64,000 bases of DNA from positions 15,346,441 through 15,410,440 of the forward strand of contig NC_134838.1 of NCBI RefSeq assembly GCF_965363235.1, read 5' to 3'. The notes beneath the pieces were generated by a model. It was not told where the DNA came from, ran no database searches, and saw only the letters and a program-made list of their open reading frames with translations. Every line of letters begins with the position of its first letter. Position 1 is the first letter of the stretch. Below, piece by piece: positions 2,853 to 52,100 of the stretch. Source of the stretch: Mytilus galloprovincialis (Eukaryota > Mollusca > Bivalvia > Mytilida > Mytilidae). Position numbers and translations under genes: made by a program.

Positions 2853-5800
2853 TTATGATTGTCGTAATCGGCTTGGAGATTGTGACCCAGTAGATCCACT
2901 TTCCTCTTTTTCTTCTAATGATTTTGTCATTCTTGCTACTAGATGTTCGCTTGGTGTTTCTCCTATCGACTGTGGCGTTTCAGATGAGGACCTCAGAATG
3001 CTAATTTGGGGTGCTCGGGTCGTTTTGGACCGATTACTCTGTTCGGCTTTGGAATCATTTTGTTCTCCTGCATAACGCTCTGTTTCAACTGAGAAGTGTC
3101 GCATTTGTTTTGTTAGAGGAGCTCTTATTCTTGATGATTTATTGTCAAAGAGATCTTTTGTTCCTAGATTATTTGATGACGACCTCAAGAATGACACTGT
3201 TTTATCCATGTTTAGACTTGCTGAAGTTTCGTTGTTATATCCAACTTCTTTTGTTATCTGATGTTGGATGTCTTGGGATGCTCTAAGGACACCAGGTTGA
3301 TTCTCTGCCATCCCTTCCTTGCGTAGTCTTTCGTAACAAAACGACGATGTCCTTTTTTCCGTAGTATTATTTCTTTTCATTTCTTGCAATCGAACTAACA
3401 CAGGCTCATTTCTAATGTTAGAAACAGAGTGATTGAGATTTTCAATAGAAGGCCTACGCTCCAAGATCTCATCAAGACAATCTTGTATTATGTCCTTTGT
3501 GCTTTGAGATAAATTTTCTAGTGTATAAGGACAGCCATTTAAAGCACATGGCTTGCAGTTATCGATGAATTCCGAAAGAAGTTGCTGACGTTGGTCTTTA
3601 AACGCTTGTCCCACTAAAATCTCAAATACTAAGAGACCAAAAGCATAAATGTCCGCACATGCAACATACAGATCTCCATTTAGAACTTCTGGACTGAGGT
3701 AAACGAAGTCTCCCGCAAGTACTCTATCCTTATCTACTGGTAATGGAGCAACCCTTGGTTGGCATGCTCCACAGAGTTTAACAACATGATTGTCGTCGAT
3801 CTAAAAGGGAACAATATACCTGGGTTATTTTACAATGACTATTACTATTGGAGACATGCGGTATTGTTTTATCATAGGTATCAGCATCTAAATCAAGTAG
3901 ATTTTGTCATTTAACATGTAACAATCGAAAAACAATAACTTTATTATAACCTAATGAGGTTTTTATTCTTTTATATGAGTGGTACAAATTAAAAGGTAAC
4001 CACACATTTCTTGTATATTCGTTTCGCTGAAAAGATCAAAGTCGGAAAGTTATCTAGAAATAATGAATACCAAAGAATCTATATGAAAGTCTTAAAACAC
4101 TTGTCAAGAATTTTTCACATTTGATTAAAATCATATTAACCACTTTATAATATAGTATATATTACCGTTGAATGCAATTTTGACACTATATTGAAATTTA
4201 TACATGTTCTTGAAAAAAAGTGTTTGTGACCGAATGAATACAAGTGAGAGATTTAGTTAGCTATGAAACCAGGTTTAATCCACCATTTTTCTGCATAAGA
4301 AAATGCCTGTACTAAGTGAGGAATATGACAGTTTTTATCTGTTCGTTCGATGTGTAATCTAATATTTTGATTTTGCCTTTTGATTGGAAACTTTCTGTTT
4401 GAATTTTTATCGGAGTTCAGTATTTTTGTAATTTCATAATGCATATTTTTTTTCAACACACTGTTTATTTTAGTTAAGAATGTATTTCTTATATATATTT
4501 TTTGATAAACGGTCTTTTCAAAATTTATTTAATTTAAAAAAAAAACATTATTTTTTTGTGCTTTTGTTTTGTTTAAGACATATATAGTTTAATCATCTGT
4601 TTTTATAGTGTTACAACTTCAAAGTGCCCGCTTGCATAATAGGTGTAAATGTAAATTTTAGTTAATATTTCACGATACGTTTTTAGGAAATTATCCTTGT
4701 CTGAATTTAATTTATGTGAATTTGGCCGTACTCCATTTTGATACTTTTGACGGTGTGGGACACATAAACTATTGTAAAATTAAAGCTGTTGTTTGAAAAA
4801 CTCCCTAAAGCCTATAGTATTAGTTTTATATCAATTTACCGATGATACTGATAATATTCGAAAGACAGTGTTAAACAGAACAGCGTTTTTGAAAATAGAA
4901 ACTGTTGATACTCATTTCAGGAAAATAATAGTATTTTATTTACCTGGCTTTGTGTGAGTACCCTATTAGACGAAGCGCTTTGATTGAATGCATTAATATG
5001 ATACACGCATATCGTTTTTCTATCCTGTTTATGAATAACTGTCATATGTTTATTCATGCCACCATCTTACATTGATTTCTAAGACGTAGTGATAAACTAT
5101 TTGTATCAAATAAAACTTATATCGATTAGTATTATAATTAGACGTTTGTTACTGTTACCATTGTCAGACATGATCAACACTAAGTATACAAAATAACTTA
5201 TATCTTAATTATGCATATTTACCGCAATTGTATTCTGATTCAGTTCCATATGGACCATTTTCTTTCTGTGTATGTATTCAAGGCCGTATAGAACTTCGTG
5301 TAATATTCTTGGTACATCTTCCTTAAAATTCATAAATTTGCTTCTTATGAACCGACTTACAGGTCTAAGATGTCCATGAAACACAAAAGCTGGTGTTGGG
5401 TGATCTGAGTTCTGGATTCCTAACAATTCCGCAACATTTTCGTTCTTCAAAAGCCTGAAATCAGTTAATAATAAACATCCTAGATGTTAAAGTAATAAAA
5501 AAAAAAATTTTTCTTTACTGTCAATTAATAAAGATTATAAAAATTTTATATTTTCAATAATCTGGTTTAATTCAATCAAATATTTGTGTGGGTGCGTGGG
5601 TGTTGCAGCCTGTAGCTCATTGCCATATTCGGCATAGCCATAGAGGGCGCTTGTAGCTTGAATCAGAATTTTGGAATTCCCGTATCAGCTTGAATTAGAA
5701 TTTTGGAATTCCCGTATCGGGCACTTGTTAATTTGCTGTCGGCTAGAAAGCAGGTGTTACACAAATTAGTTAAACTTTTTAAAAGAAAAAGAAAAGATGC

Positions 5801-8800
5801 CAAACAAGAGAAATGCCATAGGATCGCAATCAAGGGCCATGGGAAAGAAGAGTAGAGCGGCTAGCAGGACAGGAGGACAGAGAGGGCAGGACGAAGAAAT
5901 CCCCCAAAAGAAGGACGGAGCTGGCCGGAAAAGAACTGCCAAGAAAACACAAGGGGCCGGACAAGTGGCAGAAGGACCGGTGAAAACTACTGATTTCTCA
6001 TCAGGTAATGAGTCGGAGGAGACTGCACGAGCGTTACCCGCTTTAAAGCACGACCCGTTACACCAAAACTTTGAAATTGCAAATAGTTCCATTGATTTCA
6101 CTCCGTCACAAGAATCTAGCATTCATGACACAGTGGGGGAACATGTGCCTTTTAAAATTAAGGAAAAAATTTGGGAGGGAAAGTTTATTGAGCTTGCAGG
6201 TTTGGAAAATGTGGTTAGTGGTAACAGTCGGGTCTACAGATGGGTGACTCTGGGACCTCCTCCACCTCATCTTATAGAGGGGAGGCCTACACCTGCCAGC
6301 AGGTGGGGCACTAATAACTGGAGTATTGGTAATACGAGTGTTTTCCACGGTCACTCCCCATGGTAGGTGGTGTTGTAACTGTGTTTAACTACCAAGGGTT
6401 TTATGACACTATGTCAACATATGTCAGCTGATAGCCATTGTGTATAGGTAATCGGTAGTCACCCTGGCGCCTCAACAAAATATTATAGAAAACTCTGTAG
6501 CCAAAGTAATGCCACAAAGTAAAAATGTATATACTAGTAATGAAAATGTAAATACAAGTTGTTGTTATAAAATGTATGTTTATTTCAAAGGATTGTTTTT
6601 GTATAAGTTGTAAATGAAATACAGAGGATGGAACATCTACACAAATGAGTGTAATATACAGAAAGTCTGTAGTATTTTAATTTTGGTATTCGTGAATTAT
6701 AATTAACAACAGACAAAGACAACTCTAGATTAATTGTTAACATAGTTTAGAAAATACGTCAACAACTCTTGATCATTGTTCTTCCTCTCATTGCTATTCG
6801 TTCAGTACTGATATAGGGTCTTCTTATATGAGTATTGCAATTAATCATTTTTAAATAAGAAATATTTCTCCCTTTATTTGTTTGGCTATACTTTGTTTGA
6901 ATTTACGACTACTTGTATAAGATAAAATAGGATATATGTTTAAAGCAAACTGATTTGTATATATTTTTTTGCAGGAATTTGGTAGTTTGACGTGAGACAG
7001 TATATATAACTGTTACGAATTTACTGTTTAAGAATATTATAATATTTCTACAGTTAAATATTTTCCGATATCTCTCTATATGAGTATCAAATTTAATTTT
7101 TTTATCGTTGAAAACTGTATCTAAAAGCATCCCTTCATCCTTGGTTATTAGCAGACTTGGGGTCAATTACATTGGAATGTAATTAATTAAATTACACATT
7201 ACATTGCAAAAATGGTCAATTACACTAATTACACATTACACAGTTTTTGAAATGTAATTAATTAAATTACAATTACTTTACTAAAGTAATTAATTAAATT
7301 ACACATTACATTTCATCATGATATTTTTTAACAATATTTTACATGTTTATATAATGCATGTGTAAAATATTCATGTAAGCACAGTTTAAGCGTTGCACTT
7401 GATAATCATTTAAAATAGTTATTTTAATGTTTTGTCAATTAGTCTGAATCTTCTAGTCTGAAAACAGCCATTGAAAATAGTCTTACACAGGAGCTAATGT
7501 TGTGCAAGATATTGCTTGATCAGGACACGGAAGTTTTATGATTAGAAGATCATTATATTCATAGAAGAGGGAATTTGTTCCTATTAACTTGCCAATACAT
7601 CAAGGGGTATTTTGGCATCTCAGAAATGAACTCATTTGAATTAAACATAATATGAATAAAGAATTTATAAATGAATTTAAAATATTTTTTTATTTTACTT
7701 TAAAAATATTAAAAAGTGTGCTTGTCACAATAATTTTTAGTACAAACAATGTGTATAATGTCTAAATATTAGCAATATTTTGCTAATTAGATAAAATATC
7801 TGTAATAGTGGCATTGCCCCTGGACATTTTAATCTGATGAATTGCTGTTTGTTTTTACAGCTGTTAATTTTAAGTTCTATAATCCTTTTGTGTATACTAA
7901 TTTGACAAAATGATTGTATGTAGTGATTTTAAATTCTAAATGAACTGTCTCAGAAAGATGTGACACATTTTATTGTTTTTGTTTAACAAGGTGTTTATTA
8001 CTTATCAATCTATTTAGTTAAAGATCTCTCTTAAAAACTGAACAAGTATAATTATCACATTTTTTAAATTATAAGACTATTCAAAAAAAATCTGTAGGTC
8101 AAATAAATGATATAAAAACTTCAGAATAAATTACAGACTTCTTACATCAAAAAAGCATTGATATTAATATTTGAAAAATATATATAATTTTACAATTTAT
8201 ATGATTAAACACAAATCCTTAACTGTAACACAATAAAAGTACATGTAATTGAAATGTAATTCAAAAGTAATTGAGCATTACATGCTTTTTTCAATGTAAT
8301 TAATTAAATTACCATTACATGTAATTAAAAAAATGCTCAATTACACATTACATTCAATTACATGGAAAATTGTAATGCATTACACTTAATTACCATTACA
8401 TTTTTAATTACCCCATCCCTGGTTATTAGACGCTTTACCTGTATAATTGTTGCTAGGGTGCTTTCTTCGAGGTCCGCGTTGGGAGTATAAATAGTGGGTA
8501 GCTACTCAGTTCAAGTTGTCATTTGATACGGAGACGTTGCAAGGAGAAGAGCAGAAAGTTAAAACAGTTAATTGTTTAAGACGAGTAGCAGGATAAGTCA
8601 AACAAAGTGGAGTGTTTGAAACCTGCTGAGAAGATATAGATAGTTTAGGTTCCGTAGAAGTTGTATAAACAGGGTTAGTGCTAAGGTTTTGCGTTCCACA
8701 TCTCACACTATTGCAGTGAGTGTTTGCTGTTAAACCATACCTTAATGCTACCCTGTTCCAACAGTTTCATAAATATATTTTAATATTAAAGTTTCATACG

Positions 8801-11800
8801 TCGAAAGTTTACAACAGTTGGAATAGTTTCCATACATTCGTTTTGATACGTTTCAGCCCGTTTGATACATTTAGGTTCAGCCCCGTTTTATACATTTATG
8901 TTTCAGCCCGTTTGATCATTTCGGTTCACCTCCGTTTTATGCATTTAGGTTTCAGCCTGTTTGATACATTAAGGCTTAGCCCAGTTTTATACATTTAGGT
9001 GTTCAGACAATAGTTCCATACATTTAGGTTTCAGACCAGTTCCAAACATTTAGGTTTCAGACCAGTTCCAAACATTAATTTTTATAAATTTCCTGTTTAC
9101 AAAAGTTTGATTTTTTCGAAAAACTAAGGATTTTTTTTTATCTCAGGCATAGATTACCTTAGCCGTATTTGGCACAACTTTTTGCAATTTTGGATCCTCA
9201 ATGCTCTTCAACTTTGTACTTGTTTGGCTTTATAAATATTTTGATATGAGCGTCACTGATGAGTCTTATGTAGACGAAACGCGCGTCTGGCGTACTAAAT
9301 TATAATCCTGGTACCTTTGATAACTATTTAGGTTTCAGACCAGTTCCAAATATTTAGGTTTCAGACTATAGTTTCAAACAGTTGGTTTAAACAGTATCGG
9401 ACAGAAAGGGTTTTATACAGTTTTAATTCAACAGGTTCGGGTTAGATGTTGAAATTCGTTTGATGTAGTATAGTATTTGTTTCATATTTGATAGTGATAG
9501 TGTAAACCTTTTATTGACTTTAGAACTTTTGAATTGCTTTTCAAATCACAGGAAACTGGTACGAACCAGAGGATGAAAATATCTAAACGTCCCCGCCCGG
9601 TTACACGATACATTACCATACATACACATGTATACTATTCAAAATATTGGTAAAGTCAAAAGTTTGTGCCTTTGATAAAATTGACTTTCTGATTAGTTTT
9701 GTGCAACTATGTTAATGATTACCTTAATTTAGCCACTTCTGAATCTGTATTTTCTATTCTGGCATTTGTTAGATATATCCTTATAGTTACTGGTTCTTCT
9801 TTGTTGTTAGCCATAAGAATACCATTCTGTTGTGCCGACCATAGACTTCTAGGAATAACCTTCTGGTTCCATGTTGCTGTAGATGATGCAATACTTTCAA
9901 GCATTTGAGAAACATCAAACGGCACTGATGATCGTCCTTCTCCAAGTGTTCTACTAATTATTTGAATGTCATCAACACCAAAGTCATTTACAAAAATGTA
10001 ACCTTCACCATAGTCCGTTACCGTTCGCTTTAGATGCTCTAAGTTCTCCATCATCCGTTCATACACTTCACGAGACGATGAACCCTCCTTTCGGCACATG
10101 GAAATGTGATCCATATTTTTCTGGTTTGTTTCCACCATGGCTGGAATTTTCCTCTCGATATCCTTAAGAAAGTCTTTTGGTTCTTTCATAAATTCACTTA
10201 TTACTGTTCTAAGATGATCCTCCTGTTTATCATTTAAGAAATTATCTAGAGTCTTTTCCGACCTCCTTTTTGCCCAAGTTATTGGATCCCGACGATACTC
10301 TTTGAGTTTCCCTTCATTATAATTTTCAAAGAAAATATGGGTAACCCTTTTTCCAGCCTTTCCAAATGGTTTGAACATTCTGTTAACAAGTTTAACCGGA
10401 AGTGCTAATTTTGACATTTGCATTTGAACGGCACCGATTGGAATAGAGTATCTTCTGCCTTGTTTTACTTTCGGATTGATTGAATCTTCAGATGTTATGC
10501 TTCCTGCGTCTGACTGCAGGTCATCTTCAATAACTTGTAGTTCATCTTCCAGAATATTTAACCTAAATTGAATAGATCGTTCGACATTTTCTCTGACTTT
10601 TTTAATTTTTCCTTGTTCGTCTTCCCAGTTCTCTAGTTCTCTTGAAATCCTGGCGACTGTCAAATCTTCCATGTTTGCCTTTAATTCCTCGAAGTTTTTG
10701 AAAAATTCAATATCTGGCAATTCATTTTCAATCCAAGAAGTGATTGCCATTCGAGTTTTTGGCAACTGCAAGTATGTACCAAATTCTTCGCAAATTTCAT
10801 CAGTTTCTTCTTGTATTTGCTTTCTGAGTTCGTTTATAGTAAGCTCAGATTTCATTTTAAGAGTGTTAAGCTTATCCCAAACACTTCTCATCTTTGTTTC
10901 TAAGTCTTTTTCGGAATTGTCAATTCTATGTACTATTGTTTTCAAATGGTGAACGCTTCTCTTCAAAACAGTTTCAAGCCATCTAAATGATATAAAAGAA
11001 GCAATTTTATTCAGTCGTTAATGAATGGTCTTATCTGTATGACTACAATTCTGAGAAAAGTTAAGAGTAAACAGTTCATAGTAGAATTACTGTATTACAT
11101 CATTTCTGCCTAAATTACATATATTACTTATAATGCACCATCATCAAAATTTGGGAAAGTTTGTTTTTGAAATGTCTAGATTCTGGTTTAAACCAGATTC
11201 ACAAAAAGTTATAATGGGAACATACAAAACATCAATTTATGACAATACACACTGGCTCAAGGAGCAAGTTGTGCAAAAATGGTTTGATGCACGACAATTT
11301 GCTTTTATCAGTGACACACACAAATGAAAATGATAACTACTATTACAGCACTTTAAATAAACTTTTCATATATCAGTGTAGAGTTTTAGATTTGTTTGAT
11401 GCATGTATATCAGTAGCGGGTATTATAAATTGGTCCACTTTATCAACCTTTAAAAACTATGCCAATGATTAGGATCATAATACTTGATACTGTGAATTCA
11501 TTTATTTTCGTGAGTACCAATGTTCGTGGATTAATGAACACTTGCATATTCGTGGATACTTGATTCGTGGTTTTGGCAAAGTCTGCACACTTTTCTGTAG
11601 AAAATTTATATTTCGTTGAACATTTAAATTCGTGGTTCCCCTGTACCCACGAAATCCACGAATATAAAAAAATATATGTATATTCGTTCAAAATGATACT
11701 CCATTGTTTAATGAAATGAAGTGAAATACCAAAGTACTCACTTATAGGTAGAAAGAACACGGATATCCATTGCTTTATTGTACACGTTTCTGATATTATC

Positions 11801-14800
11801 AAGAAGTTGTTTGTAATTGTCAACGATGAAGTCTGGGTCAATGTCGCACTCCATCTTTGCTTTGAAGGCAGAAAACTTCATCAGTTGCGATTCTTTCATA
11901 TTCGGCCATATTGATTTCAGTCTGTTATATGCATGACTAAATACTGTCTCAGTTTGATCTTCTGCGATAAGATCCCAAAAATTACAAACAAAAAGAGCAC
12001 ACGTGGATTCAAATGGTAACATTCCCCTCTCTGTCTTCTGCTTTTCTGTCTCCAAAATTACTTTTAAAAGTCCTATAAGCTGTCGAATGAAAACAAAATA
12101 ATTCTCATAAAACTTTCTTGGTTTATACTCTAGAGATATTTTGCTAGATGTTTTTCATACTTTCTTGTGTTTAAAACTTTGACTCAATTTTTACTGATAT
12201 CATGCATATTTTTATGTTTTTATGTTAATACATTTTAACTTTGATACGTATGTTGTTAAACCCTATACAGTGAACTTAGAGGTTCCAAAGATCTTAATGT
12301 CACATTTTTACCAGTAGCAGTCGTATTGTTCTGATTACGGACTCGACTGTTATATATTTTAAAATTGACTAAATGATGACGAAGGCAAAGTGTAGCCCAG
12401 TAGGCACAGTCGATTGTAAGGCGACCTTTTCTTTAAAGTTTACAAACGATCAAACTGTTCCTTTGTTTTACCAGGTGGTTTAAAAAAAATCCTACCCTGT
12501 CTTCATCAACTCCTCCAGCATTATCAGACTTGATGGCATACAGAAATCCATTTATCGGATTCTCATTAACAAAGTCTACGATAACTTTGTCCATTTCATC
12601 ATTTTCTCCTATTCCTGGTGAGTCAACAACAACAAGTCCACACTGAAAGTAAATCATAATAATAAAGGATTTGTTTAGACCGGGAGTAAGGTACTTTGCA
12701 AATAAAAGCAATGACTATTGTTTATGGTGTAACATTATCATTGTTTCCCCTCAAGTTAAAACTTTGCTATCAGAAAGCTAAAACAACAGTTACAAGTAAA
12801 ATATAATTTAGGTACTATAACAAGAAGTCAACAGTTTTTGGTCAGGATCAGTTATAATTAAGTATATACCAGAAATAAATAGCATTGAAATTTAGTAACA
12901 ACGAAATAATTAATATTAACAAATATGTCTTATAAGTCTAGCTTGTTCAGATAAACTTTCCATCCTGTTTACTAGTTCTCATACATATAAATTTAGTCCG
13001 TTATTTAATTGTATTGCATGTTCAGATCAGATATATTAATCAAGATAAACACCATTAATTTACAACATCTGACTCTGTTAAAAAAGTTTGTTTCCCTTGA
13101 GTTAAAACGTTACTGTCAGAAAGCTTATACACCAGTTATGAGTAAAATATAGTTTAGATACTATAACAAGAAACCAACAGTTTTTTGGTCATGTACAGTT
13201 ATAATGTTTGATTCATGATATATAAATGTTCATTACCTCTAGAATTTTAGCTGGTACATAAATTTTAACTTCTTTGATTGGGGTTGCCAATTCCCGTTCA
13301 GATTCATCTTCAATAAATACAAATGGCTTCAGCTTTTTACATATTTCGCCGGGTGGTATGTTTCTAATTTTCTCAACTTTTCCATTCTTATATATTATTT
13401 TGGCTCGTCGTTGTTTATAATAACAAATTCGAGTAATTACAGATGTGCAGCTTCCAAAAAAAGTAGGAACCACTTCTTCGCCAAACATCAAATTCAAAAT
13501 ACTGGATTTGCCAGCGGAGGTTTCACCTGCAAATATATACTTTAAAGTGTAAATCATTGATAAATATAGATTCTTACATTGATACCAGTGGCTTATCGGA
13601 TTTATCCAATCTCGATAGTTAAATTATCAATTTTAAAGTCCGAGCCTCGGTGAGGACTTTAAAATTTATAATTTAACTGTCGAAATTGGATAAATCCGAT
13701 AATCCCCGATTAACTATGTAAGAATATGTTTCTCTACTGAACTTTGTTGAACGAAAATCCCCTTCGAGTGCCTTTCGCATTCTACGAAGTTGTCAATTTC
13801 ATTAACACCAGGGTCGAGTTCAATATCGTAGCAGCTACGTAGCGGCTACGTAGCTGCTAACAATATTTATGTTACAACTAGTCTATAGCTACACGTTCAA
13901 TAGTCAAAATCTATATAGCACTACGTAGCTGCTACGATATTGAACGCAGCCCTGCTAGAATATTTTGATTCATCCAGTTGTCTAAAAAGGTTATGACCCT
14001 CAAAATCATCCAATGATCTTTTGAGATCACCAGCAACCACACGTTGATTAATTTTTTTTATACAATGGTTTCGGAAACGGATAAATTTTCATAGAATTAG
14101 AGAAAACTGTGTTCTCACCTATACGTGCAAACAGTTTTAATCAATATAATATTTAATGAAAAGTAAGATGGAAATGTTCTTTTTCTTTCATCTAAATAAA
14201 GCATACCCGACGAATTAAAAGCAATAGAGGAATGTGTCCTTTTCTTTTTGAAACAAGAAGAAATATATGCGACAACATCACACTATGATAGACTTGTGAT
14301 AATACATATGTTTACATGTAACTGGAGAAGACTTGAAATCATATACAAGATTGATAATTCAAATCGAATACAACATAAAATTGAGAATGGAAATGGGGAA
14401 TGTGTCAAAGAGACAACAATCCGACTATAGAACAGACAACAGAAGAAAGTCATTTATAGGTCTTCAATGCAGCGAGAAACTCCTGCATCCGGAGGTGTCC
14501 TTCAGCTGACCCCTTAACAAATATATATACTAGTTCAATGATAATGGACGTCATACTAAACTCTGAATTACACACAAGAAACTAAAAATCATTCAAGACT
14601 AACAAAGGCCAGAGGCTCCTGACTTGGAACAGGCGCAAAAATGCGCAATATGTTTTGAGAGATTGCATTAATATGATAAATAATTTCTTATAATTTTTAC
14701 GGTTGAAATCATAATCTTTAGATATATTTTTTTTTACATTGCCTTCAGGTAAAAAAAAAAGTTTTGTTCATTTTATCAATGAAATTAGATCTTCTTTACT

Positions 14801-17800
14801 GGGTCATATAGAATAGAGATATCATGAATCTAACCAAGTAGCAAAATAATATAGCAACTTTCACTGTCACTCTTTTCATAATCATTTTTGTCATTTTGGT
14901 ACATATATCATTGATAATAATGGTGTGGTTTTTATATTTTATATTATATTTTAAGTTTAATTTGATATAAATACAAACCAGAAACTACGATAGTACAGTC
15001 GTCACGCTTTAAAGCTTCTAACTTATTGTTGATATCTAGATCTAAGTTTTGTATGGTTCCTTCTGATTTAAGGAAACCTTTGATAACAGCACTTCCACGC
15101 CTCGATAACCCGTCTTTAGAACGTTCTGCGGGAACAGGGCCTAGTCTGTCTCTGGTGTCCGTCAGAAGTTTTAACAGTTTCTCTCTTTTCTTTCTATTTT
15201 CTGTTCTCATAGACACCATTGAGTTCCCAACCTGAAGAAAAATTTAAAATTACATCATTGTAATCAAAACAGTAGTAAACATATGTTAATAGCAAAACAA
15301 CAAGACCAGGAAATAATAAATCAATTAAGGGAGTACTAGAGGGAAAAAACAAGAGATTCTTCGACTATTTTTTCACAACCTATTGAGACACTATAAATAT
15401 AAAAAGATATACGTCGCTTCTGTTTAGGATACGAGGAATGATAAATAGATCTTGATTTTCCATTTAACATTCAAATAGAGAATATCAAATTGTACGATGA
15501 TTTATATTATTTTCTAAAGTAACAATAGGTGACTCTTTTACGAAGGTCAATATACAAATAAATAATTAAATACTTTACAAAGTAAGTTTTAGAGTATCAG
15601 TTTACTTTTCTCAATCTTCATTCTAAAGACTAGATAGAATTAATTTAGATTTTGTACGAGAAAGGGTACGTCCCAGCTCACTGTAGGCAAATTCATTTAT
15701 CCAAATAAAAAATACAAGGCGGACATGTTTGACCATGTTTGATATCTTAAGGGGTCATATGAGAAATTGTTTTATTCCTACACAATCTATTTAGGAGTTA
15801 ACTGTATAATATTTTAAGTTCCGACGGCACCTATTGGTGATCCGCGATAGCAGAGCTAGTAAACGGGTTTTTGTGACCATCAAATCACCAATTGATGCCG
15901 TCGAAATACAACATGGTTATCTCCATTATAATGAAACTGACAGAAAACAACGTCAAATCATACATATAAAACCTGGCACACGTCGTCTGTGGTTGCGAGT
16001 ACGTGTTTGTCAAAATTGGTGACGTCATCCAATCAAGATGAACATTACAAACGATGTCGCTTTATACATGTTAGAATGATAATAGATGTAGATGGAAGTA
16101 TGTGAATAAAATAGTATATATGTATGGTTTACTATAACCCTTTGTACTTAAACTTATAAATTTAAGACCGTATGAGTTATACAAATAAAATATTCCTCTT
16201 TCAAACAAGGAAGCAAATTTTATGATTGTCTTTGATGTTATTTCGCCTTTCGTGCTTATTTACGTTGTTTTGAATACAAATAATTTGTTTAATAATACAA
16301 TGTATAACCAACAAAGGATGATAAAAAAGATGGGTTCACAATCAACAAAACTCAATGTAAAAATACACACTTTATAACCATTAATGTAATGATAAAATAA
16401 GAGGGAAACAGTTTTGCAATGTTACTGCATCATATACAATAAATGAATGAATCATGTCTGGTACAACATGTAACTTATATGATAATACAGGAACAATTCA
16501 GAACCGACAAATTGTTAAATTGTTTGGGGATAAACATGATAATAAATAAAGATTTCCGACTTTTCACTACAATACAAAAAAAAAAAAAATATTCTTTTAA
16601 TAATTATTTCCTAAATTGAATAAGAGAGAGATCATGATTTGAAAAAACTTCTATATATGCTTGATTTGCTCAGTTTTACTCTTAGATAGAGTTGAAATTA
16701 TACCAAAAATAATTAAGCTGTTGCATGGCTTCATGGCAATTATGATATAAATATTTAAAAAATAGTGAAGATACCACACTATCAAAGTATTGTTCTTTAA
16801 CTGTCAATGTTCAACATATATATACTAGTCAACACAAGACACGATACAAGGCAATATATTTTCCATAATTTGATATAATGTGCACTGTAACAAGGTTATA
16901 ATTGTCCAATTGGTCTAATATTTACAGAGAGTTATTTACTTACAAAAAGCTTTGAATTAAGGCAAATATGCAATTTTTGTTATTTCAAAAATCAAATTTT
17001 TTTCCAAATATTCAAAACCGATATTGTACCTTAAAACTTTAAATATTAACATGGGTCTGCTAACGTCTTTGCAGATATTTGAATACTTAGTTCTTATCTT
17101 CGAAATTAATACCGATTGTGTCATCATTTTCCGCCTGATAAATTTGACCTCTGTGTTCAATAACGCGTTATTTTCTCACTTTCCTATTTGGTCTAATATA
17201 TTTAATCGTATGCTTTGTTTTAAAAATGAATTATTTTCTTTAGACAATTTAAAAGTTTTTCCTATCTTTTAATATGTTTTTGATAAATTGGAGCTCAACT
17301 TGTGTGTTGTTACTTTTGGTCTTCATTATTGTTCTGACAAACACTCGTAGACTGTAGAAATTTCTTATTTAATATAGTTGCATGTGGAGATACATTGATC
17401 ACAAGTATACAATTTTTCCATTTTATCAAAAGTAGATATAGAACATTAAATGACTAACACTACGAATCGTCTATAATGTTAGGTCTAGTCTGTTGATATA
17501 AACAAAATCAATATTTGTGAAGACATGTGAATATAATTTTGAGAAGTCGTTTTATATCTTTTTATCAACTACATGTACTTCTTAAACTGTTGTTCTTCAT
17601 ATTCGTGTGTAGTAGAGCCATGCATTATCAAACTGCGCCCCTTTCCAAATCTATGAAATTCATTTAAAAAATACCTCAACCAGTAAGTTAGCATTCAGGC
17701 TTAAAAGATTTCTACAATTTTATCCACAAATTATGTTACGGGACTTTCCCTTTTTATTTGAAGGAAAATACATGAAATACCTTAAACAATAACGAAATTT

Positions 17801-20800
17801 TACGCCCTTCCAGTTAATGAATAATCAAGTATAATAAAAAAATATTTCTATTGATAGGAAATGTTAAGTTTGAACCTAATTAGTGTTTAATTAGAATAAG
17901 AGTTCTAATTTGTTTGGCATATTTTGATATATATGAGTGGCTTTGTTAATATCAAAACGTATCGGTTCAGTAATAGTCAAAATTGGTGCAGAGGTTGAAA
18001 TATAATCAGTCCGTCGATTTCGAATTAACACAACCTATAAAATAAAACCTGAAGGTTGATAGACAATGTTCAATAGAAATGAAAAGATATTTTTAGCATT
18101 TCAAAAAATAAGAACATCGCCGTACAAGGTGAAAAATTTTATTCAGTTAATTGCACGATTAACAGATCTTTATGTGGAACTACTATTACTTCTTTGTACA
18201 TTTCATACCGTTTTGTATTAAAAAATATTTCCCATTAGGCAAACTTATTAATTTTAATATTTTGATTGTTTGGTGAAATACAATCAATAAGAAATGAAAT
18301 GAAATGAAATGTTTCTTTCTAAACGGAAAATTATCAACGTTCCAATAATTCTTGATTTTACAAATGTATGAAATTTGAGAATTTAAAATCAAATGTGTTG
18401 TAATCCTTTCAAATCTAAGATTGAGATGGTTTTAAAATCTATTCTAGATCATAGCAGGATACATATGCTAATCACAAATATTAATAGTATCTATTTTTGA
18501 ATAGTTTTGAAAGATTGCCTAGTCTATCATTTATTCGTTATTTAAGGTGTGACTATAACATGTCTATAAGATATTTACAATAAGCGTATGCCGAACCAAC
18601 TTCGAACAACAACGAATGAGGAAAAGTAAAATTCACAAACATACTGAACTCTTGAGGAAAATTCAATAGCTCAAACACATCAAACATAAGGACAACAATT
18701 GTTATATACCTGACTTGGTACAGGGATTTTCCTATGTAAAAAGGTGGATTAATCCTGGTTTCATAGTTAGCAAAACCTTTAACTTGTATGACAGACGCAC
18801 CAAATTCCAATATATTGACAACGAAGTGTGAACAAAAGACAGTTAGAATTAAAGGGGGCAATCTCAAAATGATATTTTTGTAATAACAAATGTAGTATAA
18901 AACTGTTTCGGCATTTTTTTCTGACGTTGATGCCTTCAAAGTGTTCTTGTGACTATAAAATTAATATGTGTACCAATAACGTGATAGTGGATAAAACTGT
19001 ACTGAAATATATATTACTAGTGTTTCTGTTAATATTAAAAGTTTTCGGTACAATAATAGTCAAAATTGCTGAAGTTGTTGAAATATTCTGTTCGTCAATT
19101 TACAATTAACACAACATATAAAATAAGACCTGCAGGTTAATAGACAATGCATGATCAAGTAGAAATAGAAAGATATTCTGAGCATTTCAAGAAAATATAA
19201 CATAGACATAAGAAGATGTGGTATGAGTGCAGCTCCCCATCCATGCCACAATTTATCAAATTAAATTATTATAGTTCAAATTACGGTCTTCAACATGAAG
19301 CCTTGGCCCACGCCGAACAGCAAGCTATAAATGGCTCCAAAAAATATTTGTGTAAAACCGTTCAAACGGGAAACCAAACCGTATATTCTATATAAAAAAC
19401 AGGAAAAGAGAAACACTTATGAACCACATCAACAAACGACAACTACTAAACATCAGATTCCCCACTGTATAAGTGAAAGTTGCCATTAATTTCATTTTAT
19501 ATCGAAATTTATAAATTTTATATAGTTCTTTTTCACGAGTGACAGATCTTATATATGTGGAAGTACAAGATTCAAACTATAATATGTTCTTTGGGTATTT
19601 ATACATTTTGTATAAACTCTCACTTTTCAAAAAAGCAAACATACTAATTTTATTATTTTGATTGTGTGAGAAATACAAACCCTTTGCAATAAAACACTTT
19701 TCCAAATGTAAATTATTAACGTCCCTATAAATCTTGTTTTTAAAGATTTATCAAATTTGAACTCTTTTAAATCAAACATGTTATAATCCTTTCAATTTTA
19801 AAATAGAGGTGGTTTAAAAATCTATTTTCGAACATAACACGATACATATGCTAGTCACAAACAGTATCTCTTTCTGAATAGTGTAGAACGATTGCGTAGT
19901 TAATCATATATCTCTAGTATGTGACCATACATGTCTATAAGATAATTGGAATAAGTTAATGCCGAACCAACTCCGACTCCGATTACGAATAAGGAAAAAG
20001 TAAAATCACAAAAATATTTAACTCCGAGGAAGATTCATAACGGAAAGTCGATCTATGTTAACCAAATGACAAAATAAAAAGCTTAGAATTATCAAACGAA
20101 CGGACAACAACTGTCATATGCCTGACTTGGTACAGGCATTTCCCTATGTAGACCAAACTTGGTTTTATAGATAGCTAATAAAATTGAGAATGGAAATGGG
20201 GAATGTGTCAAAGAGACAACAACCTGCCCAAATAAAAAACAACAGCAGAGGGTCACCAACAGGTCTTCAATGTAGCGAGAAAATCCCGCACCCGGAGGCG
20301 TCCTTCAGCTGGCCCCTAAACAAATATATACTAGTCCAGTGATAATGAACGCCATACTAATTTCCAAATTGTACACAAGAAACTAAAATTAAAATAATAC
20401 AAGACTAACAAAGGCCAGAGGCTCCTGACTTGGGACAGGCGCAAAAATGCGGCGGAGTTAAACATGTTTGTGAGAAACCTCTCTCTTGTAAGACAGTCGC
20501 ATAACATTGCATTATATTGACAATGATGAGTGAACAAAGACAGTTAGAATTAAGAATCAATCTCAAAATGATATTTTTGTAATAACAAATATGGTATAAA
20601 ACTATTTCGTCATTTGTTTATAACGTGGATGCCTTCAAAGTGTTCTCGGGACTTTTAAGCATTTAAGTGTACCAATAACGCTTATCTACATTTTCATTTA
20701 GAAGGGAAAAAGGATGCTGTTTTCCAATTTTTTCATTTTTATTTTTAACTGTTTTATAATATCTTTCTTTTCTTCATTTATATCAAAATTCTATCATTCA

Positions 20801-23764
20801 GTTTTCTTTCTTAAATATTACATATTAGTGATCTTTCTGTGTAGAATATTTATAAAAGTATAAAAGTATAAACTGAAGCTAGAAAAAAGTACGGTGACCG
20901 ACTACTTTTAATATATAATTGAAGATATTACTTAACGTTGGGAAAAAGTAAAATCACAAATCTCCGAGGAAAATTCAAAACGGAAAGTCCGAATTCAAAT
21001 GGCAAAATCAAAAGCTCAAACACATCAAACGAATAGATAACAACTGTCATTTTCCTGACTTGGTACGGGCATTTTCTTATGTCGACAATGGTGGATTAAA
21101 CCTGGTTTTATAGCTAGCTAAACCTCACACTTGTATGACAGCCGCATTAAATTCCATTATATTTGAAAGGACATGGTTTATGAATGTTAAACCAGACATG
21201 GAATATTTGTAGTTTATAATCTCAACCTCTGTAGGCCCCCGTTATTCTCGTTTTGTTAAGTTAAGTTGTAAGGTTCACCGGCAATTATGTTGTGTAGTGA
21301 CCTCTGAAATTTTAACAAGCGGAATTCCAACAGTTTACATATATTAATGCCTTATCTTGATCAAAATATATATGTATAATTATGTAATTTGCTTTAGTTG
21401 TCGTTACACTCCCAATTATGCCTCTACTGAACCCTTGATCGAATAAGGAAAAAGAAACTATGTGGTAAATTTAGGTTTACAGTGTGAATGTGCAATTGCT
21501 GTAAAACATTTAGCCGTGAAGTTCTATTTAGAAACAGTTAATCAAACTAGTTCTGAATTGACAACTGTACAGAAAAAGCCTCCATTTGAAAATGATTTTG
21601 ATTCGAAAATTTAAAAATATAAAACAAGAGTAATATAGAGTTAAAAACAATGTTTTCTTATCTTCATCAAACAGTTCTATTGTATAAATATTTCTGGACT
21701 ATCTTGTCAATCTGCTGAAATACAAACTTATGGACAATTGGTTTACATATAAATAAATATAAGAAGATGTGGTATCAGTGCCAATGAGACAACTCTCCAT
21801 CCAAGTAACAATTTATAAAAGTAAACCATTATAGATCAAGGTACAGTCTTCAATATGGTTCCTTGGCTCACACCGAACAGCAAGCTATAAAGGGCCCCCA
21901 AAATTACTGTTGTAAAACCATTCAAACCGGAAAACCAATGGTCTAATCTATATGAAATCACACAAACAAACGACAACCACTGACCAACAGGTTCCTGACC
22001 TATAGGAAAAGGTGCAAACAAATGCAGCGGGTTTACACGTTGTATGATTATCTATTTCATGTACTAGTATCCAGGATAAACAGTGCCGATGAACAAATGT
22101 TTATGACGCTTAAAAATACAACGTGTTGGAGTAAAACAATCCATTGATCCCGAACAGTTTGCCTTCTGGGAGGGGGGTTGTAACGTTATAAAAGTAAAAA
22201 AACTGTACATTTTCATATAAATCATTCTGGTCCACAGGCAACTATATATGTGATAGTAATGTGCATAATGCTTTGCTACAAAAGCAGATTATAAGTAATA
22301 CTGATGTATCCGATGCATGTTTGACCAAGTAGTTAGGAGGAAAGTATTACAACGTATGAGATCATAGTGCCATTGAAAAACATTCTTTAAAACCAGACTT
22401 CATAAAAATGAAGAAAAAAAAATAATTGATTTTTATTCGTTTAAATGAAAGTGGTAAATAGTTTATACATATTTAAGACGAAGCACAAATTAATAAATAC
22501 CACAGGTTATTTTTTAAACAATTCGGATGGGACAAGAAATGTAGTCTATCAGTGCAAAAAAACGTATGTTGGAATATGGGAAAATTTGTTGCAAGGTTCT
22601 TTAACGTACATAGAAATTTTGTGAATCTAGGTATATGAATGGGGATTCGACTATGACAACTTCATTTTTACAGCAGTGGTGGCAGCGTTTTTCACCATCC
22701 CGAACAGCCTAACCTACAACAAGGTTGGTAATGGCTCTGAACGAGCTTTCAGTAGCTCAAGAAATATGATATGTGCTTTGTGTCTTTTGTGTTTTGTTAA
22801 GGTTTTCTTGCGCATTGTAGCAATCTGATAAAGCCCCTTTCGACTGATTTTTATTGTTTGTTCTGATGTTAACTGTTACAATCCTGTTCCAGGTAGGAGC
22901 CAGTAAACATGTTTAGCCCACCACATTCTGTGTCTCCCTGTATGGAGTCAGGGGCCTATTATGCAGTGGTTGTCGTTTTTTGCTTTTTAAACATCATATT
23001 TGTTTTTTGTCAAATGTTTTGTTTTGTACATAAATCAGGCCGTTATTAGTTTTCTCGTTTGAGCATTTCAGGGTCTTTTATAGTCACTGTGTGTATAGAG
23101 TTTTGTTCATTGTTGAAGGCCGTATGATGATATACAGATGTTAATTTATACATCATTTGGTCTCAAGTAGAAAGTTGTCTCATTGGCAATCAAACCATAT
23201 CTTCTCATTTTTATATCGATATATTATTCTTTTGTTACTGTCTTTTTGACGTTTATCCATGCCCATTCTTATTTATGTTGATGACATTTGTGATATACCT
23301 CTGGTATGAAATTAGAATTGAGAATGGAAATGGGGAATATGTCAAAGAGACAACAACCTGACCAAAGAGCAGATAACAGCCGAAGTATTTACAGTGTCAT
23401 GAGGATTGTGTGAATGCATTTTGGTGTATACATATAATGATCATTATATAATTGCAAATAGAGATACCACATGACATAATTACACAGAAGATAGTTCATA
23501 ATTTTATTTACAATAATCATAACTTACCACATCCTTGTAATTGGGTTCACCTTCACATTTGTTGTAGAAAAGTATAAGCCTTGTTTTCATATCTTCTATT
23601 TCGTCAAGACCGCCTAAATCTATACCCATCGTGTCAGCAATTTCAAAAATATCGCCATAGTCGTCTGCCCCTTCAATGCTCTCGCGCGAAATAGCAAATG
23701 TCTGCGCTCTCTCTGGTCCAGGTCTATACGTTTTGGTATTGTCATCATCCGGTGCCAAAGCCAT
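2853..23764 (-). CDS. Gene 1: dynamin-like GTPase fused to a pseudokinase (DSTYK-like architecture), 8 coding exons, 1234 aa
   Basis: Coding exons on the minus strand, in transcript order: 23528-23764, 14979-15231, 13237-13526, 12496-12642, 11742-12079, 9723-10982, 5223-5454, 2853-3800. All introns are GT-AG, with phases 0,1,0,0,2,2,0, and the frame stays open to the stop at 2853. Domains: N-terminal acidic helical module (about 25-79); helical segment (80-160); GTPase with P-loop G164-ETSAGKS, G2 Thr in a C-T-S-V-I-T context, G3 D267-SPG and G4 N342-FWD; helical stalk (about 423-800); kinase fold (about 800-1050); Ser/Arg-rich, probably disordered tail (about 1055-1234). The kinase fold keeps an alpha-C Glu (E837), an APE-like SPE (955-957) and D-x-Y-A-F-G (969-974). 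It lacks the VAIK lysine (R823), HRD (H910-M-E) and DFG (G930-A-C), so it should be a pseudokinase. The start is ATG at 23764; the exon is preceded by an acceptor-like site at 23783, suggesting a 5' untranslated exon. Gene 2 is a paralogue in the same orientation. Function is inferred from domains only. Confidence 0.88.
5658..5720 (+). repeat. Two-copy 32-bp tandem repeat in intron 6 of gene 1
   Basis: A unit containing AGAATTTTGGAATTCCCGTA is present twice in a row, directly upstream of the retroelement-like open frame at 5797. It may belong to that element's leader. Confidence 0.6.
5797..6366 (+). mobile_element. Retroelement-derived ORF fragment inside intron 6 of gene 1 (possibly DIRS / tyrosine-recombinase type)
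   Basis: This open frame of 189 codons is antisense to gene 1 in its intron. The N-terminal half is very basic and Lys/Arg/Gln/Gly-rich (nucleic-acid-binding character). The middle carries V-P-F-K-I-K-E-K-I-W-E-G-K-F-I-E-L, a pattern I associate with the first ORF of tyrosine-recombinase retroelements in invertebrates, then a proline-rich end. Its composition is less AT-rich than its surroundings. No reverse transcriptase or recombinase follows, so it is a partial, old element. Family assignment is tentative. Confidence 0.45.
7152..8421. mobile_element. Non-autonomous hAT-type element, 1270 bp, with 8-bp target duplication
   Basis: The left end begins CAGACTTGGGGTCAATTAC; the reverse complement of the right end begins CAGGGATGGGGTAATTA. 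Both are hAT-like CAG ends with imperfect inverted repeats. The 8-bp sequence GTTATTAG flanks it on both sides (7144-7151 and 8422-8429), the size typical of hAT. Subterminal regions are packed with ATGTAATTAATTAAATTAC-like motifs, as expected for transposase-binding clusters. No transposase frame lies inside. It sits in intron 6 of gene 1. Confidence 0.85.
8440..9600 (+). other. Promoter-like sequence followed by a 25-bp repeat array (possible old LTR-like fossil)
   Basis: A TATA-like GAGTATAAATAG near 8490 is followed by a region with about a dozen imperfect 24-27-bp units of the form CATTTAGGTTTCAGMCCGTT (8838-9085, resuming 9328-9382). The array is split by a minus-strand family D copy (9135-9330), which inserted later. 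The TATA-plus-leader layout suggests an old LTR-like fragment, but I see no paired copy and no coding part. Treated as a fossil of uncertain class. Confidence 0.35.
9135..9330 (-). repeat. Interspersed repeat family D, inserted in the 25-bp array
   Basis: Reverse-complement match to 683-880 along most of its length, including the CGTCACTGATGAGTCTTATG core and AATGCTCTTCAACTT. The array units resume directly after it, so it is younger than the array. Confidence 0.75.
11498..11670. repeat. ATTCGTGG-rich palindromic repeat in intron 5 of gene 1
   Basis: Repeated TTCGTGG motifs are present, with opposed ends: left TTATTTTCGTGAGTACC, right GTACCCACGAAATCCACG. It looks like a short foldback MITE-type repeat. 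No target duplication identified. Confidence 0.5.
12743..13206. repeat. Duplicated about 115-bp segment in intron 3 of gene 1
   Basis: 12743-12858 and 13087-13206 share TTGTTTCCC, AGTTAAAAC, AGTAAAATATA, ACTATAACAAGAA and CAGTTATAAT in the same order, with moderate divergence. About 230 bp separates the two copies. Confidence 0.6.
13570..13725. mobile_element. Foldback MITE, about 156 bp, in intron 2 of gene 1
   Basis: Outer ends ATTCTTACAT / ATGTAAGAAT are inverted. Inside is a long stem in which TATCGGATTTATCCAAT pairs with ATTGGATAAATCCGATA, and TTTTAAAGTCC with GGACTTTAAAA. The whole would fold into a hairpin of roughly 50 bp. No coding capacity. Confidence 0.7.
13809..13954. mobile_element. 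Short MITE, 146 bp, with about 34-bp inverted ends, in intron 2 of gene 1
   Basis: Left end CAGGGTCGAGTTCAATATCG and its GTAGCAGCTACGTAG continuation are mirrored at the right end, with few mismatches. CAG...CTG ends hint at a hAT-like mover, but I do not see a clean 8-bp target duplication. Confidence 0.7.
14376..14646 (+). repeat. SINE-like family A copy in intron 2 of gene 1
   Basis: Starts AAAATTGAGAATGGAAATGG, continues GGAATGTGTCAAAGAGACAA and ends near GGCGCAAAAATGCG. Matched along its length by 20180-20455 and in part at 23314, 43288, 46563 and 54348. I recall this as a very common mussel repeat. Confidence 0.75.
19207..19385 (+). repeat. SINE-like family B copy
   Basis: AAGAAGATGTGGTATGAGTG, CTTCAACATGAAGCCTTGG and AGCAAGCTATAAATGGC match the copies at 21758 and 60353, though a piece is missing here. 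Confidence 0.65.
20180..20455 (+). repeat. SINE-like family A copy, inserted after the intron 1 duplication
   Basis: Full-length match to 14376-14646. It interrupts copy 2 of the local triplication between TTATAGATAGCTAAT and the AAACCTC-TCTTGTA continuation, which are adjacent in copies 1 and 3. Confidence 0.75.
21758..22035 (+). repeat. SINE-like family B copy
   Basis: Contains AAGAAGATGTGGTATCAGTG, CCAATGAGACAACTCTCCAT, the CGAACAGCAAGCTATAAAGG block and a tail like the GGCGCAAAAATGCGG end of family A. Best-preserved copy in the window together with 60353-60536. Confidence 0.7.
22690..23215 (-). repeat. Interspersed repeat tail (family C) in intron 1 of gene 1
   Basis: The 23035-23215 part, read on the minus strand, contains GCCAATGAGACAACTTTCTA, TTGAGACCAAATGA and CGGCCTTCAACAATGA. 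This is shared with 54040-54158 on the plus strand. The adjoining 22690-23030 looks like the rest of the same mussel repeat, but I have no second copy here to prove it. Confidence 0.5.
23314..23380 (+). repeat. SINE-like family A fragment
   Basis: AATTGAGAATGGAAATGGGG and AAAGAGACAACAACCTGACC are present; the rest of the family is missing. Confidence 0.65.
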
Positions 23765-49113: not shown

Positions 49114-52100
49114 CTAGTCTCTTCCATTTTTAAGTCGCCTGTAAGTTACTTCAGATTGCTTGGGTACTTTGGCATGTTGGTCAGTTTTGAGGACCTCTAC
49201 TTGTTCTTGTAAATTTAAAAGTGTTGGTCTTGATTCCTCTGATATGTCTAAGCACCGAAGTATAATGTCAATTGCATCATCAGACAAATCAGATTGTTCG
49301 GTTGTTAGACTTATCATTTCTTTAGGATTTATTCTTTTGATAAACAGATCTAGCGACATTTTTCTTTGGCTGTCAAAAGCCGGCGTTTTCGACATCATGT
49401 CAAACATCAGAAGGCCAAATGCATAGGCATCTGCACTTGCAGTGTACAAATCTCCTCTCAAAACTTCCGGTGCCAAATAGACAAAATCTCCACTAATATG
49501 TTGCTCTTGGTTTCCTGGGAGATCTGCTTTACGAGGGAGGCAACCACCAGTGAGACGAATATTTCCGGTTGAATCCAACTACAAACAAGACACAAAAGTA
49601 AAATTATTTTGTTTTTGCCAACTGTAAGTTTGCATGCTAATAAATTAACAAATCGAATATATTATATTTGCAATAATTGTAGCAAAAAAATATCGCACCG
49701 TCACCGTATGTTTTGTATTTGTTTGTTGTTGCTGCTTTTCATAATTGTGTTAAAATATTGAAATATTTCTGTAACAAACCAAGATTTTCTATATTTGCCT
49801 ATCTTTCTTTGTTTAATTACTACGTCTTTTGTACTCCTATTGTCATGCGCAAAAAAGTCGACTCTCCAATTGAATAATCTGTTGGACGTCAGATCCAACA
49901 CATGTGCTCTTGAGACATATGTTAAACTTAAAGTGACGACGAAAATATTTTAAAGTACCATCAACCATAGATTTTATAAGATATTTTTTTATTTCAAATT
50001 TTAATCATATCATTTAGAAATAACTGATCATTTAGAAATAACTGATCATTTAGAAATAACTGAAAAATATATGTACCATAACAGTGTTCATATTGAGTTC
50101 CATATGGACCATCCCATGTCTATGAAGGTATTGTAACCCCATTGTAACCTCCTGGAGTAAGTTGGAGATGTTTAAATGTCCGGAATGTTTCTCGTACTGA
50201 TGTCGAAGTGTTCTCAATGGTTTGTTGTATACCATTGCAGGAAAATACGATTCTGAATTTTGTATTCCTAAGAATTCTGCAACATTGCTATGTTCTACTA
50301 ATCTGAAATACAATAAAACTATCGTTGTTATGATGTGCCATTGGATAGTTCCATCAAATAAATTTTAACAGGTATGAGTTTATCTATACAACTTTAAAAA
50401 TGATAAAAACTGAAATCAAAAATTAAAACACGAAAATATACTATTGTTTTTAACACATTTCATTTTGAAGATATTGAAACATGTGTTTGATTATATTTTA
50501 CATTCAGTTACATACGATAGTGTACTAACCTCAGCTTTGCAATTTCGGAATAGCATTTGTCTATGTTGCATGAAGGAAGATAAATTTTAATGGTAACTTT
50601 TTCTTCGCTATTTTCACGTTTCAGTAGCCCTCTCTGGTGTGCAGTCCACAACCCTCTAGGGCATTGTTGAATCGTGCTAGTTTGTGAACTTGACATGTTC
50701 ATCAAGAATTCTGATATTTTGAAAGGAGTTGTTGACCTTCCTGTTGCGTCATTAGGATCAATAATCTGTAACTCATTTGGTTTAAAATCTTCAATAAATA
50801 TATACCCAGCACCATAGTCTGCTAGAAGACGCTTGAGAACTTCTAATTCTTTCATCATTTCCTCATATACCCGAAGATTTTTGGCAACATCACGTTTACA
50901 CGTTAACACGTGACTAAAAATGTCCTGGTTTGATTTGATTAAATTTGGAATCTCAAGAATCGATTTATCTAATGTTTCCTTGGCTCCTTCCATAAAACAG
51001 TCAATGACAATTTTCAGCGGATCTTCCTCATTTCGGCATGGCTCGGTAAATGTTTTCAGAAGTTTTTCAGATCGACCCTTTGCATATGCACATTTGTTAC
51101 TCGCGTAAACCTTCCACTTATTAGCACCCGGAAATATCCGAATAACTTTCTTCATTGGCTGGAACACCTTACTTCTCGCAAGGACACTTAGATAGTATTG
51201 AGTATCTTCAAGTTGCATTTTGCCAAAATAGGTAGCACAAACAGTTAAACGTCTGCTATCTCTTCGAGACGCGGGATTTGGAATGGATGCGATTGAATCT
51301 CTAGACCCTGTTGATGAATGAAGATCTGTCTCTACTTTTGTCACTTCATTGGTTAGTCCTAAAACCTTTTGCTGAATTTCGTTAATAACCAAGGTTTCGA
51401 GCAAATCAATGGTACCGTTTTCTTCTTCCCATTTGTCAAGTTCAATAGCGATCCTTTCAATTATCAAAGAATCAATTTCCGTTTTGAATTCGATCCATTC
51501 TTTCTTGACTGCTGTAGGCTCTCCATCTTGATCTAGAATGAACTCGCTTGGAAGTTCTTGTTCTATCCACTGTGTTATAGCCATTCGAACCACAGGGAGC
51601 TTCAAGTACTCTCGAAATAAACCGCAAATTTGAATAGACTTGTTGTTGATCATATCTCTTAAAGATGTTATGACGTCAACTGATTCATTTTTAAGCTTTT
51701 CCAAATTTTCATTCGCTTCCTTCATATTGTTAACCATTCTATCATCCGAACAGTTGAGTTGTTTAACCATTGTTTTCATGTGATGAACTGATCGAAGTAA
51801 AAGAGTTTTCATCCACCTGTGAAAAAAATACGTTAATATTGCAGTATGTTATCAATAGAAAACAAAGGATATGGGGTATCCATCCACGACACAAAATCAG
51901 TACATACATAGCAAAAAATACACACACAAAAAGCAAAGGAACGGCGCTTTTTTGCTGTTTTTCATCTAAAAGTCACAATGACGGAGCCAAAAAAAAAAAA
52001 AAAAACCCAAACTCTCACCTCACTCATCAGCCATAAATCAATATCAGAAAATAGAAACTCAAAACTATTGAGTCTTCTTTTTATTGCATTATTTATTGTC

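Follow-up and report, generated by a model that had tools for sequence, protein, structure and literature searches.

A mussel gene family joining a dynamin-type GTPase to a probably DSTYK-like kinase has a probable pseudokinase branch under constraint

Gene 1 of the mussel Mytilus galloprovincialis encodes a dynamin-superfamily GTPase and, in the same chain, a protein kinase domain whose active site has been dismantled but whose sequence is under constraint. From the analyses described below, we hold with moderate confidence that gene 1 represents a pseudokinase branch within a family of DSTYK-like GTPase-kinases, in which the GTPase would drive assembly or a change of shape and the dead kinase would dock other proteins or act allosterically. 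Pseudokinases and dynamin-like GTPases are known separately; a constrained pseudokinase branch within a family that combines a dynamin-type GTPase with a DSTYK-like kinase is, in our view, new. Coordinates are given within the window, the whole 64,000-nucleotide stretch that was analyzed (contig C1, 15346441-15410440), unless they carry a contig prefix, and genome-wide searches covered 1.385 Gb in 331 contigs.

Gene 1 and its two domains

The spliced model of gene 1 runs on the minus strand from 23764 to 2853 and comprises eight exons that encode a protein of 1,234 amino acids. All of its introns are GT-AG with consistent phases, it contains no internal stops, and it reproduces the numbering of R823 used in a preliminary description of this DNA. 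The exons are as follows.

23528..23764, minus strand: exon 1, start codon at 23764, alignable with gene 2 exon 1
14979..15231, minus strand: exon 2, GT-AG, phase 0
13237..13526, minus strand: exon 3, P-loop GETSAGKSS and SCTSVITR
12496..12642, minus strand: exon 4, G3 motif DSPG
11742..12079, minus strand: exon 5, G4 motif N-F-W-D
9723..10982, minus strand: exon 6, helical middle, then kinase beta-3 (R823) and the start of alpha-C (E837)
5223..5454, minus strand: exon 7, middle of the kinase with the dead catalytic loop HMELNQNT
2853..3800, minus strand: exon 8, G-A-C replacing DFG, SPE, alpha-F Asp, C-lobe, long tail and stop

The GTPase part contains the complete set of G1 to G4 motifs, namely the P-loop at residues 164-172, the SCTSVITR segment from residue 189 (with T191 as the G2 residue), DSPG at 267-270 and N342-F-W-D345, and it matches the Pfam Dynamin_N profile over residues 160-294 (E 8.9e-14), which together identify a dynamin-superfamily GTPase. 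Lys is usual at the second position of the NKxD motif of GTPases; this position is Phe in gene 1 and His in gene 2. Compared with solved structures, the GTPase profile matched BDLP (2j68, 3.1e-12), the GTP-binding proteins of 5owv (2.5e-10), IniA (2.8e-8) and mitofusin-1 (5.6e-7). When a dynamin stalk was sought among solved structures with an exon 6 profile, none was matched; the six hits up to E 5 were two to the vimentin coiled coil (7.2e-5 and 1.3e-4) and four at 0.12 or worse. A low-confidence, single-exon model of exon 6 (mean pLDDT 50) predicts long helices after the GTPase, and the C-lobe exon modeled alone had a mean pLDDT of 36; both models are of poor quality.

The kinase part of gene 1 matches the Pfam Pkinase profile over residues 832-1043 (E 1.4e-18, 43-259 of 263 profile positions), so that by profile this domain is a homologue of protein kinases. 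In agreement with this assignment, hhalign aligned the dead kinase with a profile of live family members over 226 columns (1.4e-19, probability 99.2%), and a profile built from genes 1 and 2 matched B-Raf (2.1e-16) with the dead loops aligned on the B-Raf catalytic loop and DFG motif. Every residue change and retained landmark listed in the preliminary description is present in gene 1 under the same numbering: the beta-3 Lys is replaced by R823, HRD by HME (E912), the catalytic Lys by N914 and the Asn by T917 (in HMELNQNT, residues 910-917), and DFG by GAC (G930, within C929-G-A-C932), and the alpha-C Glu (E837), an SPE sequence (S955-P-E957) and the alpha-F Asp (D969) are kept. Its statement that every catalytic motif had been lost is correct for the motifs as wholes but not residue by residue, because the His of HRD (H910) is retained. 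Both glycines of the glycine-rich loop are also gone from gene 1, in which IPRSLWSAQ aligns opposite LGSGSFADV of the sister gene 3, and one of the two is kept in gene 2. The beta-3 Lys to Arg change is found only in gene 1; Lys is present in gene 2 and in a third copy, gene A. With R823, E912, N914, T917, G930 and no loop glycines, gene 1 does not have the residues of an active protein kinase.

Three other features were observed around gene 1. A 198-codon open frame lies on the opposite (plus) strand of a gene 1 intron at 5770-6366; its last 189 codons had no match in Pfam, and it may belong to a mobile element. A fragment of the helical exon immediately outside the left edge of the window (C1:15343603-15343815, L023) is 63% identical to gene 1 and contains stops. 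Between genes 1 and 2, a 96-base repeat is present five times at 44061-44544 (97% matches).

Paralogues with the same dead motifs and selection on the kinase part

The same window contains a second gene with the dead motifs of gene 1, which the preliminary description did not mention.

49114..58401, minus strand: gene 2, 1,061 amino acids, eight exons, same dead motifs, beta-3 Lys kept
58401-58192, 54943-54709, 53990-53707, 53479-53333, 52636-52305, 51816-50530, 50302-50077 and 49578-49114, minus strand: exons of gene 2

Gene 2 follows the eight-exon plan of gene 1, is 40% identical to it, and also matches Dynamin_N and Pkinase. Both genes have HME, Asn and Thr at the altered catalytic-loop positions, and G-x-C where DFG would stand; the long tail encoded by gene 1 exon 8 is absent in gene 2. 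Gene A, on the minus strand at C1:15446-15452 kb, 35 kb beyond the window, matches gene 2 at 93-99% identity, depending on the exon, and has the dead kinase motifs of genes 1 and 2. Its P-loop reads GKY, its G3 motif is IYTPG in place of DTPG, a frameshift occurs near its C-terminus, and no exon 1 was found in the 8 kb searched; judged by its sequence, gene A is a decaying copy.

When genes 1 and 2 were compared by part, the GTPase was the most similar (48% identity), followed by the kinase (44.4%), the helical part (38%) and the N-terminal part (34%). In the kinase part there were 129 synonymous differences over 158 sites and 240 nonsynonymous differences over 586 sites (Fisher p about 1e-20), and dN/dS was not computable for this pair because synonymous sites are saturated. 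Neutral divergence was also simulated. At d=1, simulated copies retained 20% identity (maximum of 27% in 200 runs) and each acquired about 7 stops; at d=0.5, the corresponding values were 39%, 47% and about 4 stops, but the observed synonymous saturation is compatible only with larger distances, so that d=0.5 does not fit. Since the kinase parts are 44% identical and open despite synonymous saturation, neutral drift is rejected for gene 1 against its paralogue gene 2, and such drift across the kinase part, in orthologues, was one of two outcomes that the preliminary description had named as contrary to its reading. Within the dead catalytic loop, 11 of 14 residues are identical between the two genes, a value equaled or exceeded by 11 of 245 14-residue windows, this loop included.

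These results support the earlier proposal in part: to judge from its residues, the gene 1 kinase domain has very probably lost catalysis, and its kinase part is constrained in the comparison with gene 2; the scaffold or sensor role driven by the GTPase that was also suggested is a hypothesis. Gene 1 thus combines kinase homology, loss of essential catalytic residues and constraint, the properties of a pseudokinase. The dead branch sits on a very long stem, with 4.45 changes per column in the kinase tree and 1.54 in the P-loop exon tree. Such a length is consistent with rapid change at the time of the loss of catalysis and constraint thereafter, an order of events that we infer.

Two further proposals concerning these copies were dropped. 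In gene 2 against gene A, the kinase looked more constrained than the remainder (dN/dS of 0.37 versus 0.70 and 0.71), but the difference was not significant (Fisher p 0.24). Duplication of genes 2 and 3 as a unit to give gene A and gene 4 was unsupported, as homology in the upstream flank of gene A stops near window position 56996, short of gene 2 exon 1; no exon 1 of gene A or gene 4 was found in C1:15452517-15460500.

Live-looking sister genes and kinship with DSTYK

Gene 3, a live-looking sister, lies head to head with gene 2, and the divergent start codons of the two genes are 432 bp apart.

58834..59019, plus strand: gene 3 exon 1, head to head with gene 2
61628..61835, plus strand: gene 3 exon 2, read by eye
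62574..62860, plus strand: gene 3 exon 3, P-loop GEATSGKSS, read by eye; the gene continues beyond the right window edge

The GTPase of gene 3 contains GEATSGKSS, DTPG and NKWD, and its kinase contains GSGSF, VALK, HRDMKLEN and DVG. Its model is incomplete, since one exon that would lie between the GTPase and the helical region could not be located. Intron 1 of gene 3 contains long arrays of a 45/90-base repeat (60178-61324).

Intact motifs of this kind were the rule at other loci. All 11 loci read at the DFG position besides genes 1, 2 and A have D-x-G; in 10 of them a P-loop exon lies close by on that strand, and the eleventh, at C14:58.1 Mb, was placed solely on the similarity of its kinase. 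HRD with the catalytic Lys and Asn was found in seven of the eight live-type loci in which the catalytic loop was read (the exception, gene 4, has DRD), and the beta-3 Lys was present in 7/7. Among 17 further P-loop exons, 16 fit G-x4-G-K-S/T; the remaining one, upstream of the gene 8 kinase, reads GELGSGQTS. As lower bounds taken from the best-scoring candidates, the cluster holds nine genes or copies in which GTPase and kinase exons lie near each other on one strand, and the same arrangement is found at C2:88.0, C3:84.7, C7:86.1 and C11:17.9 Mb. The view of gene 1 as a lone novel fusion is overturned by this layout, which is common to the cluster and to loci on other chromosomes.

Individual members of the cluster differ in which motifs they keep. 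The DRD of gene 4, which is almost a copy of gene 3, is at C1:15476356-15476652 (L047). In gene 8, the P-loop without its Lys (C1:15537540-15537880, L095) is found with a live-looking kinase containing HRDLKLEN (C1:15542-15544 kb), and on sequence gene 8 seems to mirror gene 1. A partial plus-strand copy at C1:15432.7-15439.4 kb (L082, L055) has P-loop, G3 and N-lobe exons among the candidates listed; no catalytic-loop or C-lobe exon of this copy was among the best candidates listed.

Gene 1 is not the mussel orthologue of DSTYK. The true mussel DSTYK, found with a human DSTYK domain as a probe, is a separate gene at C1:14.56 Mb, about 0.8 Mb away, which is 84, 74, 57 and 60% identical by exon to the human sequence, with 77 and 67% for two alternative copies of one exon. 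These adjacent alternative copies of the catalytic-loop exon (C1:14565498-14565730, minus strand, L074/L075) encode HRDIKLKNVL and HRDITVKNVL, and alternative splicing of DSTYK could by their sequences swap the catalytic Lys for Thr. Genes 1, 2 and 3 share with mussel DSTYK two kinase introns of identical position and phase, at alpha-C Glu+5 (phase 2) and at catalytic Asn+2 (phase 0), with gene 3 and DSTYK read by eye; two more introns in the kinase part of DSTYK are missing from genes 1-3.

In single-sequence searches, the live members scored closest to DSTYK. The mussel DSTYK kinase gave 63-82 bits against six full-domain live kinases of the family, 73 bits against the partial kinase at C2:107, and no more than 54 bits against six other mussel kinases, a comparison set that was not picked as the nearest relatives. 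This ranking was not obtained with a profile of the six live kinases, which scored an unrelated mussel kinase at 103.5 bits and DSTYK at 98.9, nor for the dead members, as genes 1, 2 and A scored 27-39 bits with the DSTYK query. In the genome-wide search by exon with the human DSTYK probe, live members reached at most 56 bits and other kinases at most 55. Genes 1 and 2 scored 56.6 and 48.2 bits against an unrelated mussel kinase and at most 42.7 and 40.0 against live family members; because an unrelated kinase outscores the family for both genes, their placement in it rests on architecture and introns. By their sequences, the kinase part of the live members is probably DSTYK-like, mainly on the introns, and genes 1 and 2 are too diverged for scores to reveal this kinship.

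The branching point of genes 1, 2 and A within the family was not settled by the kinase tree, which kept three of six intended outgroup kinases (L001, L006 and L068 had no HRD-K match in the longest frame) and was built without C2:87, C2:77, C14:58 (C-lobe only) and gene 4. In the P-loop exon tree, genes 1 and 2 group with loci elsewhere and not with the plus-strand genes of the cluster, with modest support (84/79). None of the best 60 of 2,611 matches of the gene 3 kinase to solved relatives was named as DSTYK. The likely N-terminal exon of mussel DSTYK lies 25 kb upstream on the same strand and has no intact P-loop (GQNSYSKF). That this N-terminus is a degenerate GTPase was attractive by eye but not significant, as 33 of 1,000 shuffles scored higher; hhalign of the DSTYK N-terminus with the family GTPase near the P-loop gave E values of 0.047 (29 columns) and 0.038 (48 columns).

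Possible function and comparison with known systems

Because the active site of gene 1 has been dismantled yet is under selection, and its sister kinases look live, its product probably serves as a regulator and not as an enzyme. We propose a mussel gene family in which a single protein would combine a dynamin-superfamily GTPase, a helical middle and a DSTYK-like kinase. By analogy with its solved relatives, the GTPase would act as a switch whose GTP cycle drives assembly or a change of shape, probably at a membrane. The dead kinase would serve as a module for protein docking or allostery instead of phosphorylating and, by analogy, would most plausibly pair with live paralogues or their substrates. 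A hint of such a partner comes from genes 2 and 3, whose divergent starts are separated by 432 bp, as a divergent head-to-head layout often reflects common control; for gene 1, the window holds no live partner in this arrangement.

The dead kinase could instead act within its own chain, as an auto-regulatory clamp on the GTPase or stalk, and pair with no live paralogue. In its favor, genes 1 and 2, both assembled in full, each encode GTPase and kinase as a single chain, the incomplete gene 3 has the same exon order, and the dead domain is constrained nearly as much as the GTPase (44% versus 48% identity). The head-to-head pairing of genes 2 and 3, on the other hand, is a hint that a live kinase is co-expressed, and we consider this explanation somewhat unlikely. 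A more elaborate proposal starts from complementary losses in the cluster, where genes 1 and 2 keep the GTPase and lose the kinase and gene 8 keeps the kinase without the P-loop Lys. The cluster might then encode interlocking, half-dead partners of mixed assemblies, with GTP use in one chain gating phosphorylation by another and with genes 2 and 3 sharing a promoter; although we regard it as improbable, it would, if true, be a new kind of signaling switch, possibly one used in mussel innate defense.

Loss of the usual motifs need not always mean loss of activity, as WNK, CASK and SelO have been reported to be active with unorthodox residues. An unorthodox kinase or nucleotide transferase that works through other residues could be accommodated by the retained HRD His, alpha-C Glu, SPE and alpha-F Asp, by an acidic Glu at the position of the catalytic Asp, and by the beta-3 Lys and single loop glycine of gene 2. 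This activity is nevertheless very unlikely: neither Mg-binding residue survives in gene 1 or gene 2, and gene 1 is also without both loop glycines and the beta-3 Lys. That gene 1 is itself a copy decaying toward a pseudogene is more improbable still, for although decay has occurred in this cluster (the altered motifs, frameshift and missing exon 1 of gene A, and the stop-bearing fragment L023), gene 1 has eight intact exons, all of its splice sites, no stop and strong constraint relative to gene 2. An isolated new fusion, with the GTPase driving a sensor shaped like a kinase, would accord with the residues of gene 1 as first described, but as a one-off event it is refuted by the nine cluster genes or copies and the loci on other chromosomes with the same layout, and it is the explanation to which we give the least credence. 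We thus favor a pseudokinase branch of a GTPase-kinase family. A conserved pseudokinase within a dynamin-like GTPase, with live-looking sisters nearby, offers a natural comparison for the non-catalytic role of a kinase fold, and a GTPase-bearing relative of DSTYK could hint at the type of switch that controls DSTYK itself.

No description of a GTPase-DSTYK-like kinase family was found in the open-licence literature among the matches listed, which is weak evidence of absence, and the main text of a study of the oyster kinome mentions neither DSTYK nor GTPase (0 mentions each; PMC4883820). In passages of published work, DSTYK is described as a poorly understood human kinase that is probably not a RIPK (PMC10492769), as phosphorylating STING, with K681A and D777A as kinase-dead forms (PMC11933320), and as recorded in a tick, with a relative in sea urchin (PMC2100071). 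The family described here resembles DSTYK in that, within the tested panel, the mussel DSTYK query scored best against live family members and that two intron positions and phases are in common; it differs in that the mussel DSTYK kinase keeps HRDIKLKN and DLG, has two extra introns and has no intact P-loop in its likely N-terminal exon.

The likeness to bacterial dynamin-like proteins and mitofusins lies in the GTPase motifs, in the best profile matches among solved structures, and in the helices that follow the GTPase in a low-confidence model, whereas the exon 6 profile of the gene 1 family matched no dynamin stalk among solved structures; we know of no bacterial dynamin-like protein or mitofusin that has a kinase domain. 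HER3, JAK2 JH2, MLKL and ROP5 are pseudokinases, none of which, to our knowledge, is in one chain with a dynamin-type GTPase. Gene 1 is like them in its kinase homology, in the loss of its catalytic residues and in having live relatives in the same genome.
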